Positions 46,006 through 50,512 of a stretch of 64,000 nucleotides of DNA are shown piece by piece. Within the stretch, counting starts at the first letter, position 1, and each line of letters opens with the position of its first letter. This stretch comes from Paracyclopina nana (lineage: Eukaryota > Arthropoda > Copepoda > Cyclopoida > Cyclopettidae). The DNA lies in NCBI GenBank assembly GCA_019096065.1, contig JAGUCH010000002.1:5158501-5222500 (forward strand), written 5' to 3'. A program made the translations under genes and the position numbers. The notes beneath the pieces are model-generated. The model did no database searches. It was not told the origin of the DNA and saw nothing but the letters and a program-made list of their open reading frames with translations.

Positions 46006-49000
46006 CTAAGAGAATAACGGAATGACGGAGAATGGAACGATGGGCGAAGAAGCCTGCACCGACAAAGCTATAGAGTGACATTCTGCAGCCATTTCGTACA
46101 ACTTAGCCCCCTCACTATTAAAGCCAGCCACTGTTTCTTCCGTCGGAGTGAACTCAGACTCGACCTTCATAAACTCAGGTTGGAATGTAGGGGCTTCTTG
46201 AAGGTCCGCAATCTCCTGGTCGTCGGAACCTGGGTCATTATCGCTTTGGCTTCCATTTCTACTGAAAGCCGACTCCATCGGCATGCTTCCTTGCGTGATA
46301 TAGTCTTCTGCTAGGGCCTCCATGACAAGACCGAGCAATGACCAAAGATCCTCCGACACTGGGTCGATTCGCACGGCGATTTTCAACGTTTGCTCAGCAA
46401 GTCTGTTGAAACCCAGTTGGTAATAGACTTTTCCTAGTTGGAACAGACTGGAGACGTGACTAGGATTGATGCCTAGACTATTTTCGAAGCACTGCCTCGC
46501 CTCTTCAAACTCGCATTTCACCTCATGAACCAAACCCCTTACGTGCATAACGTGGTATGACATTGGCATCAATAGCCTGAGAGCAGTAGGAAAATTAAAC
46601 TCGACAGCTTGATTAGATTCATAATTGAGGAATCACTTACTTGGCCTCATTTACACAAAGTTCTGCCTCCACCACATTGTCTTGTCTTAAATGCAGCTCA
46701 GAGCACAGCAACCAAATCCTCATCAAACTGTACGTCGGATCCATAGAGGCTCCATTTTTAGGTGGGAATTGACTGGATAGGCTAGACGCGACCTCGCTCA
46801 AAGTCCGCTCAATATGAGACGCAGTCATGCTATGAGCGTGAAGGCTGATGCTATCCTTGTCTGACATGGTATCAAACATTCTCATACCACTATGGATGGT
46901 GCCATACCCGAGGGTTGGTTCGGTTGCTGAGCCACCCAATACTTTTTCCTGCCCCATAATTGTTGGGGTTGAGGCGGTTCCCGGCATCGTTGAGGCTGCA
47001 GTTGTCGCAGCTTCAGAGGATTGTTCATCAGCCTGCATTTTTTCAACCGCTAATTGCCATTGGTGCAACATAGCTTTGGCTGCTCCTAATGCAGTTTCAC
47101 CACCAAAAACGACCTCCGTTAGTCGAACTTTTAATGTCATCAGGCCAAGGTTGTCGGGGTACTCTTCTAAAACGGAATCCGTGAGCTCAAGAGCTTCCTG
47201 GAACTGTTTTTGGCCAGATAGCAGCAAAATTGACAGCTGTAGGCTAGAAAGGTGCTCAGGATTGAGTTGGAGCGCTTTTTTGGTAGCTTTCATCGCCTCA
47301 GCTGGGCGTCTGGTTGTCGCATAGTGAAGCCCGATGAAAAATTCGCACACGTGGTCATGCTTGTCTAATTCCAAACCAGCTTTGTAGTGGTATTCAGCTT
47401 TGTTAAGAAGCTCCTTTCGGTCAGTTTGGTTATCCGTATTACGAGCCACAAGACTGTATCCAAGAGCAACGAACACGTTGCACCTAAAAAAGTTATCTTA
47501 TGCAAATATGCTCAAATTGCACGCAACAATATAACTACCTTGACGAAAAGTGCTTAGAATAGTTCGCAGCTTGAGAGTGTAATGCCCTTTGGCTCAAGTC
47601 GAGACCTGCTGAATAAAGGCCAAGCTTTTCGTAGCAAATCCTCGCCATAGACAAATACATTCCAACATCGATATCCTTGTCACTCCACTCATTAGCAAGC
47701 TCTTGAAACACCATCAACGATCGGTACATTTTGCCTTCACACGCCAATGTCAAAGCAAACTGTTCCCAAGTATGCCTCTGCTTAAAGCTGAACTTCATGG
47801 ATCTTTCGAGCACGTCACTCAGCAGCTTGAACTGATTAAACCTTACCAAGGCCAATGTCATGAGATCGTAGGTGATCGTGGCTGCTTCGTAAGTTCGCTT
47901 TCTTTCCACAGAGAATTTTGGGTCTTGACTCAAAACAGCATCCTTGCTAGCTATATACTCAGACAAGACCAGCGAAAGGACAATTTCTTCATAGCGATTT
48001 TTAGGGACAAATGCTCCAGTTATCGTTGACCTTTTTGGCCTCCATGGGCTCTCTACGTTCGTGGTGGTGAACCTAGATGATGTTCCAGCGCGCCTAGTGC
48101 TTCCCGTTGACAAGTTTGTGGTGTCTGCATTAGGATCTGGCTTGCTGTACTTGCCATCGCTACAGCTACAAAAATACATGATAACTCCTTAAAATTCACA
48201 GCTACGCACGAATTTTGGCTTACCTATGCAACAGAGTTTCAGCAAGCTGACAGCACACGTTTCGTCTGATATCTCGAGTCGATTCCGATTCTTCAGCCAT
48301 GAGCATAGACCTCAACCTAGAAATGGCTTTAGGGGGTCTGCCAGCTTTAAGGTTTAGCCTGGCAGCCTGGAACAAGGCTGCTTCCAGAATTGGGCCCAAT
48401 CGTTCCTTCGGGGTCTTAATATTTTCGGGGAGGTCCGATGGGACCGGAGAGGCTGAGCCTCCGGTGGTTGTAGTTCCTGCAGACGCCACTGACCAGGTGC
48501 TTTGTCCCATCGTCTCGGACCTTGGAAATGGGAAATCTTGCAGGTTACAATTGCTAATGCGTTAAGTTTTATTTTGGACTTACTTGGCCTTACGGAGATT
48601 TCCAGGCTTGCTATTTTAACATTAACGCAACATATGGAAGAGAAGAACAAAAACGCATGCACAATAAACACACTCAACGGAAAAGAACTCAGGGAACGCA
48701 AAAGGCCGTATATAAGCAGTACCTGTCAGCAACTTGAAGAAAGAGCAACGTGAGATCTCCTGCAACCTCATAGCATTTAATCACAGAGTTGTCTCTCTCG
48801 GTCATTTTAGCCTTCGAAGTCGACCCAGAAGGGATTTTTTCGATGCACATCGCTTTTATAGCAAATGCTTCAGCCATTATCTTGAGGCTCCTCGGAGGAA
48901 GCTGTTTTTCTTCTAAACTGTCAATGTTGGCCTTATCATAGTAGTCTAAAGCCTCTTTGTAGCTAGCTTCTGCAAAATGTAGCTTGCCTAGCAAAATGAA

Positions 49001-49327
49001 CGAGTCTAAATGCACTCCAAGCTGTTTCGCTTCTTCCCCAACGGTGGAGAGAAGGCACACTTTAGCCTCGCGAAGTCCATTTTTGGCCTCAATTGATGCA
49101 CCTTTTGTTCTTAGGGGTGGATTATCCTGCAAGAATTGCTCGAGCTTGGCCTCTCCAGTCAAAAAATTTCCGAGGGTTGAAAATTGGGGGTTAGGCTCAA
49201 AATTGGTTTTGAGTTTTTTAGCCAAGTCTTCGACCTTGGACCAATACTCTAGCTCCCTGCATCTTTCAATTTCGTGCTCCAATTGGGGAGCCGTAGAGGC
49301 TCCACTACGCTTGTTCCTGTTGGCCAT
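46006..49327 (-). CDS. TTC7: TTC7, tetratricopeptide scaffold of the PI4KA complex
   Basis: Five exons, 49327-48723, 48520-48224, 48165-47539, 47483-46641 and 46576-46006, all in phase, 980 aa (vertebrate TTC7A/B ~850). The start is supported because ELEYW/EIERCR matches the family N-terminus within ~20 residues of the ATG. The end ASSPIVPFSVIPLFS matches the conserved C-terminal SSP..PFS.IP. TPR-like helices are visible (YKAGLELDKHDHVCEFFIGL, ALQLNPEHLSSLQLSILLL, NPSHVSSLFQLGKVYYQLG). TTC7 joins FAM126 and EFR3 to hold PI4KIII-alpha at the plasma membrane, where it makes PI4P. The ATG is only 2 nt after the Snapin stop codon and lies in the same exon as the Snapin 3' end. A ~60-residue Ser/Thr-rich insert sits in the middle. 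Confidence 0.9.
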
Positions 49328-49329
49328 GC

Positions 49330-49869
49330 TTATTTGCTAGCTTCAAGTAACGCTCTTCTGCTTGCTGTCTCTTTCAAGCAATTCTGGTGCACCCTGTTCA
49401 ACCGATCTTGAGCATCCTTAAAAAAAGACAGTTGAAGCTATATGGAGCTTATAAGTAGAATTTAGCATGAAATCACCTGAAGCATAGAATTGACAACGAT
49501 AACTTTCTTCTTGGTGTTCAGTAGCTTCTCTACGTAAGGCTCTAGGTCGACTGAACCTTGGAGCTCAGAATTGATTGACTCAAGTTGCGTTTCAAGAGCA
49601 GCCAACTGATCTTTGAGCTCTAGTTGAGCTGAACGGCAATTCGAAATGCCCTGATCTAAGTGCTCAATCGAAGGAGACAACAACCCAATTAAGCCTTCAG
49701 CTAAAGTGTCTCGAGTGGGATTCTCTAAAAGATCTTCAGGCGAGTCCAAAACTACGTTGCCTGTTGTATGTGAAGACGCTTGATCTTGAGTAGTTGAATC
49801 ACTTTTGGCAGCGGCCGCTGATAGTGATGAAGTGGACGAAGTCGACTTGGTCGGCGATGATGTGGCCAT
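49330..49869 (-). CDS. SNAPIN: Snapin (BLOC-1/BORC subunit)
   Basis: Exon 1 is 49869-49476 and exon 2 starts near 49413. Snapin is a small coiled-coil subunit of BLOC-1 and BORC that binds SNAP25 and links vesicles and lysosomes to transport. Family match: DTLAEGLIGLLSPSIEHLDQ, RSAQLELKDQLAALE, DLEPYVEKLLNTKKKVIVVN, then in exon 2 AQDRLNRVHQNCLKETASRR ending LLEASK. The first ~45 residues are Ser/Thr-rich and low complexity, as in other snapins. Length is ~155 aa against 136 in human. The stop codon TAA is followed by GC and then the ATG of TTC7, leaving no room for a private 3' UTR. Confidence 0.9.
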
Positions 49870-50512
49870 ACTATTGCCGCATTCTCCTTATCTTCGACTT
49901 CCACCTAACTTGACATGTGACAGTTGGCAGGAATCGCAGGACTGGACTAACAGCTGCAGAGGAGAGCCAGAGTTTGTTGTTATGGCTGATCGCTTTTAGC
50001 AAGAACAACGGACATTCTTACGTTTTCCTCAGTTCAAGTGCAGAATAATCGTGAATAACAATTCATTTCGAAATTTAATTGCTAGGCTCCTAAATTTGTT
50101 TGCTTTTTTTCATGAATTGAGACGATTTTTTTCGACTCAAGATGACTGAAGTGCCTTAAATTAAGCGTTCGCGTACAACATCGTTCTTTCAATTTGGCGG
50201 TTTTAAAGCGGAACTTTAATTTTTCTTTTTTAAGCATCTAATATGTATTTCTAGAATTGAATAAGGTCCTTTAAAATAGTTTTTGTGAAATCATCCCTTG
50301 TTTAATTGTTCTCTGCTTCTAGTCCCGATAAAAGTATACTAAAATCTGTATTCAATCAAGTGTTTGTCAAACTACCCTGCTATTTATGACTCCATTATCT
50401 GGTACCATTGCTCCCAGTTATTTTTAAATATCTTACTGAGAACTGACCTGAGTGACCTCTGAGAGTCGAGAGATGAGCGCGATGAGAAAAGTGAAAGGCC
50501 TCTTAGCCGAAG
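49870..50512. promoter_or_regulatory. Divergent spacer between Snapin and serine protease
   Basis: 643 bp head-to-head interval that must carry the Snapin (and perhaps Snapin-TTC7) promoter and the protease promoter. It is AT-rich; no motif was scored and no gene seen. Confidence 0.35.

Follow-up and report, generated by a model that had tools for sequence, protein, structure and literature searches.

The Snapin and TTC7 genes

The window analysed here, a stretch of 64,000 nt from the copepod Paracyclopina nana (assembly GCA_019096065.1, contig JAGUCH010000002.1, positions 5,158,501 to 5,222,500), carries genes for Snapin and TTC7 on the same strand, with a stop-to-start spacing of 2 nt. On the minus strand the 3′ end of Snapin reads GCT AGC AAA TAA, followed by GC and then by the ATG GCC AAC of TTC7, so that direct inspection of the bases confirms what the sequence-only reading had stated, namely that the two codons are two nucleotides apart and in different frames. 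In window coordinates, all on the minus strand, Snapin consists of exon 1 (49477..49869, ATG at 49869), a GT..AG intron of 60 nt (49417..49476) and exon 2 (49330..49416, stop TAA at 49332-49330). The GC spacer occupies 49328..49329. The TTC7 frame starts at 49327, with coding exon 1 at 48723..49327, and its AUG context (AAGCATGG) is favourable, having A at -3 and G at +4. Exons 2-6 of the TTC7 model follow at 48610-48584, 48520-48224, 48165-47539, 47483-46641 and 46576-46006; the 27-nt exon at 48584-48610 is weakly supported (acceptor score only 0.2 on the scale given below) and may be wrong. Both genes were also recovered, with a gap of 2, by a self-trained gene finder.

Proximity of an ATG to a stop codon carries little weight by itself, as 19 of 70 predicted genes have an ATG within 21 nt of the stop. 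Since such closeness commonly arises by chance, the evidence lies in the fact that the TTC7 ATG opens a conserved protein. TTC7 exon 1 scores 158.4 bits against the Pfam family TTC7_N, the match beginning with residue 12 of the protein, at position 8 of the profile, and in a phmmer search against PDB the protein aligns to TTC7B with an E-value of 3.1e-119. Because query residue 13 is aligned there to chain residue 7, the N-terminus of TTC7 looks complete; the final TTC7 residues align weakly to the TTC7B structure (6.7 bits). The Snapin product of 159 aa scores 70.2 bits against Snapin_Pallidin, and a solved Snapin homologue is aligned up to query residue 153 of 159 (phmmer against PDB, E 1.6e-5). 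It had been claimed that both proteins are complete at their facing ends, and the family and structure alignments support this.

The unusual spacing alone might be taken as the mark of an assembly or indel error, or of a dead gene copy. We give next to no weight to such an artefact, as the two frames are both open and conserved, neither gene was found a second time, the window has no N and the same pattern occurs at other loci. In the assembly searched (91.95 Mb, 10 contigs) TTC7_N is present at one locus only, with three exons matched, and PF14712 (Snapin_Pallidin) at two, the second being a Pallidin-like gene. The junction reads the same in another cut of this assembly, which is no test of assembly error. 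The assembly also has 80 matches to Chitin_bind_4, which we take to be an arthropod-specific cuticle family, and its 5S gene resembles those of crustaceans; a search of the assembly for COX1 gave no match.

Splice acceptors were scored with a 3′ acceptor matrix trained on predicted introns of the same genome. On this scale predicted intron acceptors have a median of 5.2 (n=200, some of which also served for training), and the best AG per 60-nt coding window has a median of 1.9 (n=1512). No strong acceptor was found within 40 nt upstream of the TTC7 ATG, where the best score is 2.1, as in coding background. An earlier doubt that the junction holds a trans-splice acceptor is thus borne out. The strongest acceptor near the TTC7 start is that of Snapin's own intron (7.04), 89 nt before the TTC7 ATG. 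There are candidate donors upstream of Snapin, for example at 50447 and 50021, with scores of 4.9, and a cis-spliced leader for TTC7 is therefore possible.

Upstream of Snapin, a three-codon open reading frame (ORF; ATG CGG CAA TAG, 49871..49882, minus strand) has its stop 1 nt before the Snapin ATG, a spacing that echoes the 2-nt spacer between Snapin and TTC7. If transcribed, this small ORF could let some ribosomes bypass Snapin.

Close same-strand pairs elsewhere in the genome

The Snapin/TTC7 pair is not a one-off, as other abutting clusters recur in the same genome. The LSM family, with 17 matches in the genome, was used as a sample of small genes. On the 3′ side 340 nt at or beyond the match end were covered for all 17 genes, and the stop was reached in 16, in five cases after an intron recognised by eye; on the 5′ side 250 nt were covered for 15 of the 17, all except those at C2:8940977 and C6:4489146. 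In three of the 16 a same-strand protein start lies no more than 21 nt past the stop.

At L041 (C3) the LSM gene is followed after 0 nt by a 35-aa ORF with an intron, and this after 7 nt by TP53RK, identified by an E-value of 1.3e-10 to a PDB chain of that name; the 35-aa ORF had no match in family or structure searches. At L048 (C8) a gene that we take to be LSM2-like is separated by 21 nt from TXNL4A, whose DIM1 match (119.5 bits) begins at profile position 1. LSM2, like TXNL4A, is a protein of the spliceosome. The third case, L053/L070 (C4), represents one LSM gene with neighbours on both sides: an EamA-like gene ends 1 nt upstream, its C-terminus scoring 20.9 bits, below the curated cut-off, and 19 nt downstream begins an ORF, 82 or more codons long, which had no family match.

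Three further LSM genes have a neighbour at a larger distance. The LSM gene of L062 lies 51 nt after NUS1, whose match (E 4e-13) runs to the last residues. At L064 a frame without database match ends 79 nt upstream and at L072 a short acidic frame ends 140 nt upstream, the upstream gene being unproven in both cases. A strong acceptor is located 0-6 nt before the LSM ATG in all three. Altogether 6 of the 17 LSM genes have a same-strand gene close by; the number falls to 4 if the unproven upstream genes of L064 and L072 are not counted. At L052 a stop is followed after 5 nt by an ATG, whose frame does not close within the stretch covered; because an AATAAA overlaps this site, L052 was left out of these counts.

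The second Snapin_Pallidin locus is itself part of an abutting pair (L002:1828-1832, C2 ~14.256 Mb). The Pallidin-like gene ends in AAG TAA, and after a single A the ATG of a WWOX-like gene follows on the same strand (spacing 1 nt), in which two WW domains are combined with a short-chain dehydrogenase domain, as in WWOX. This pair and a C2H2/SAAL1-like pair are the only ones that were kept from simple scans for stop/ATG proximity, most of whose matches looked, by eye, like shadow frames or reading through introns.

Two stretches picked by position, C1:3.0-3.1 Mb and C3:3.0-3.1 Mb, made up a 200-kb sample, which was annotated with the self-trained gene finder; this gave 21 predicted same-strand neighbours with gaps from 69 nt up. 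Some of these gaps are internal to genes: the 69-nt gap splits a phosphorylase-like gene and an HSP70-like gene is apparently split as well (gap 94), both names having been given by eye. One merged prediction was resolved by inspection into RRM-like, 170 nt, C2H2, 8 nt and SAAL1-like, where the names RRM-like and SAAL1-like are our presumptive assignments. In Pfam searches of the C2H2/SAAL1-like pair the C2H2 match fell just under the cut-off, and there was no match for the SAAL1-like protein. A further pair, presumably NUDT-like and MED8-like, has a spacing of 105 nt and is counted as spaced although its acceptor reaches only 3.55.

Including Snapin/TTC7, there are eight abutting junctions, with spacers of 0, 1, 1, 2, 7, 8, 19 and 21 nt, and five spaced junctions of 51-170 nt. 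In the last 40 nt before the downstream ATG the best acceptor ranges from -1.1 to 2.6 in the abutting junctions (the window at L041 being only 31 nt), and reaches 6.5, 5.8, 7.75, 7.4 and, for NUDT-like/MED8-like, 3.55 in the spaced ones. The four strong acceptors are located 0-26 nt before the downstream ATG. An acceptor of at least 5 within 40 nt is thus present in 4/5 spaced versus 0/8 abutting junctions (Fisher p = 0.007), and the scores differ as well (Mann-Whitney p = 0.0016), for junction sets that are small and classes that were drawn after the data had been seen. Where no coding frame was visible in the 250 nt upstream of an LSM start, 1 of 11 starts has an acceptor of at least 5. The spaced junctions look like those of trans-spliced operons, although an exon ahead of the first gene, cis-spliced to these acceptors, would give the same picture.

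Searches for a spliced leader

If some junctions are resolved by trans-splicing, a spliced leader (SL) gene would be expected, and several searches were directed at it. A dinoflagellate-type leader gave 4 genome matches, spread over four contigs and each having 3 mismatches, versus 1 in the control, which is unconvincing. The same applies to the core of the leaders of the amphipod Parhyale, a set taken from an excerpt of PMC5111886: it gave 1 match versus 3 in the reversed control, and 1 versus 2 in a second search. By eye, no leader gene was recognised in the stretches of 5S array that were read or beside one dispersed 5S gene. One of these regions (L017, C1:913-940 kb) is a tandem 5S array with a 472-nt unit that includes a second, diverged 5S-like copy, and a retroelement-like integrase frame was seen by eye within the stretch covered.

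A generic pattern of a donor followed by an Sm site had 267 matches versus 143 in the control and was not treated as evidence. Among the matches listed is a short motif that has five near-identical copies in the genome, on both strands and only in C2:175189-378982, versus 0 in the control; it has a donor-like GGTA, and a following Sm-like site is seen in four copies. This is possibly a small-RNA gene family or else a local duplication, and we regard it as a lead only. Two further motifs, with two copies each, are also among these matches.

These results bear on the proposal that Snapin and TTC7 form an operon which is resolved by SL trans-splicing. The operon part of that proposal gains support for this genome. 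At the Snapin/TTC7 junction, however, trans-splicing is unsupported and appears highly improbable. Strong acceptors lie 0-26 nt before the downstream ATG in 4/5 spaced junctions elsewhere, and trans-splicing is stated for copepods and amphipods (PMC7986045, in part); against this, the acceptor at Snapin/TTC7 is only 2.1, the level of coding background, and neither the Parhyale core, nor the dinoflagellate-type leader, nor the inspection of 5S regions yielded a convincing match.

A probable shared transcription unit and its alternatives

We consider it probable (about 0.62) that Snapin and TTC7 are transcribed together as an operon-like unit, one of several such clusters in this arthropod genome. 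That the two genes share one primary transcript had been suggested from their spacing, and it is still the best reading; it has become more credible because other tight same-strand clusters exist in the genome. A promoter between 49870 and 50512, upstream of Snapin, would drive the putative dicistronic RNA. TTC7 could then be produced in two ways. Ribosomes may finish Snapin and restart 2 nt further on, on the same RNA. Alternatively, there may be a second message in which a leader, either a 5′ exon or an SL, is joined to the acceptor of the Snapin intron, so that Snapin exon 2 would become an 89-nt 5′ untranslated region of the TTC7 message, with one short AUG frame.

Termination-reinitiation is the most likely of these routes, at slightly below even odds, and it is favoured because spacers of 0-21 nt without nearby acceptors suit it and because there is a precedent in yeast. 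In engineered yeast bicistrons, as reported in the part of PMC11952965 consulted, 80S reinitiation occurs at UAAAUG and UAAAAUG, with spacers of 0 and 1 nt, and becomes weaker with distance. The very short spacers are common to both systems; the yeast cases represent an induced laboratory state (PMC11952965), here it is a natural animal gene pair. Splicing of the TTC7 message at the Snapin intron acceptor ranks second and is a possibility that we hold with some doubt, and an internal promoter would rank third.

Such an internal promoter belongs to a different explanation, according to which the two genes are independent, overlapping units, with the TTC7 promoter inside Snapin and the 3′ end of Snapin inside TTC7. 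We consider this unlikely, but there is evidence in its favour. The genome is compact, with predicted opposite-strand gaps down to 19 nt. Candidate polyadenylation signals for Snapin lie within TTC7: an ATTAAA at 48781-48776 (minus strand) in TTC7 exon 1, 549 nt past the Snapin stop, and an AATAAA at 48568..48573 (minus strand), the first after that stop, about 757 nt downstream and inside a TTC7 intron of the model. In addition, FlyBase gives an alternative promoter as the usual origin of alternative monocistronic transcripts that cover the 3′ coding region (PMC4528330, in part). What independent units leave unexplained is the occurrence of 0-8 nt spacers in several unrelated pairs, and also the split between junctions of 0-21 nt without acceptors and those of 51-170 nt with acceptors.

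Several further observations weigh against a shared transcription unit or against its generalization. The 200-kb sample gave only one recognised abutting pair, versus 21 predicted same-strand neighbours. The LSM sample is biased to housekeeping genes. For several upstream partners no more than a C-terminal fragment was seen, and at L053 the coding score of the final ORF in the cluster is negative. The distinction between the junction classes is also not perfect, as a 60-nt window lifts the junction between the 35-aa ORF and TP53RK to 5.3, via the ORF's own intron acceptor. Strong acceptors are found at 12% of 66 predicted starts versus 3% of coding windows, and five predicted genes with same-strand gaps of 779-3341 nt have one near the ATG; a strong acceptor, being present also at genes that have no same-strand gene close by, is thus not necessarily a sign of an operon. 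With respect to translation, restart after an ORF of 159 codons is usually inefficient in eukaryotes. Leaky scanning through Snapin was considered as well: its coding sequence contains 3 AUGs in 480 nt, and so low a number (3 at most in the first 480 nt) is seen in only 2 of 65 predicted genes, Snapin probably being one of them. This signature was rejected, since synonymous shuffles average 3.3 AUGs, which points to amino-acid composition and not to selection.

Rather tentatively, the two junction classes may reflect a genome-wide operon system of two kinds, one spaced, where a leader would be spliced to the acceptor, and one abutting (0-21 nt), where translation would proceed by termination-reinitiation and to which Snapin/TTC7 would belong.

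The closest comparison within the arthropods is Drosophila, for which PMC4528330, in the parts drawn on here, describes polycistronic transcripts in 2.5% of the protein-coding genes, with a spacing of -34 to 319 nt at loci that have polycistronic transcripts only. Snapin and TTC7, as two complete ORFs on one strand with a 2-nt stop-to-start spacing, are inside this range, and the over-representation of small polypeptides in the fly resembles the small first cistrons found in the present genome. The fly cases are supported by RNA (PMC4528330); the copepod pair is a candidate read from the genome sequence. The copepod genome differs further in having 6/17 LSM genes in clusters (two of the upstream genes being unproven) and in that some junctions carry acceptors of the trans-splice type. 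In Ciona, as described in a portion of PMC7986045, operons have a median intercistronic distance of 1 bp and many lack an intercistronic region. The near-zero distance is shared with the copepod pair, but in Ciona it is measured between annotated gene boundaries and the operon is resolved by an SL, whereas here the stop and start codons themselves abut. Operons of nematodes and chaetognaths, which in Paraspadella comprise 18% of the genes (PMC12460157, in part), resemble the spaced junctions of 51-170 nt with their acceptor close to the downstream ATG. They differ from Snapin/TTC7, which has no acceptor at the junction, and from the present genome in that the leader searches were without convincing match.

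In the 2021 paper that includes copepods and amphipods among trans-splicing animals, operons and polycistronic mRNAs are given as unreported for them, as far as the consulted part of that paper goes (PMC7986045). Titles and abstract openings in the open-access literature yielded no report of operons in a crustacean, and nothing was found there that joins Snapin, TTC7 and operon, or TXNL4A, LSM2 and operon.

The distribution of operons among animals is oddly patchy, and an arthropod with many tight same-strand clusters would add a lineage to it. Among the clusters, LSM2-like/TXNL4A places two spliceosome proteins side by side. If true, the pairs with 0-2 nt between stop and start codon would provide natural animal test cases for the production of two proteins from one message.

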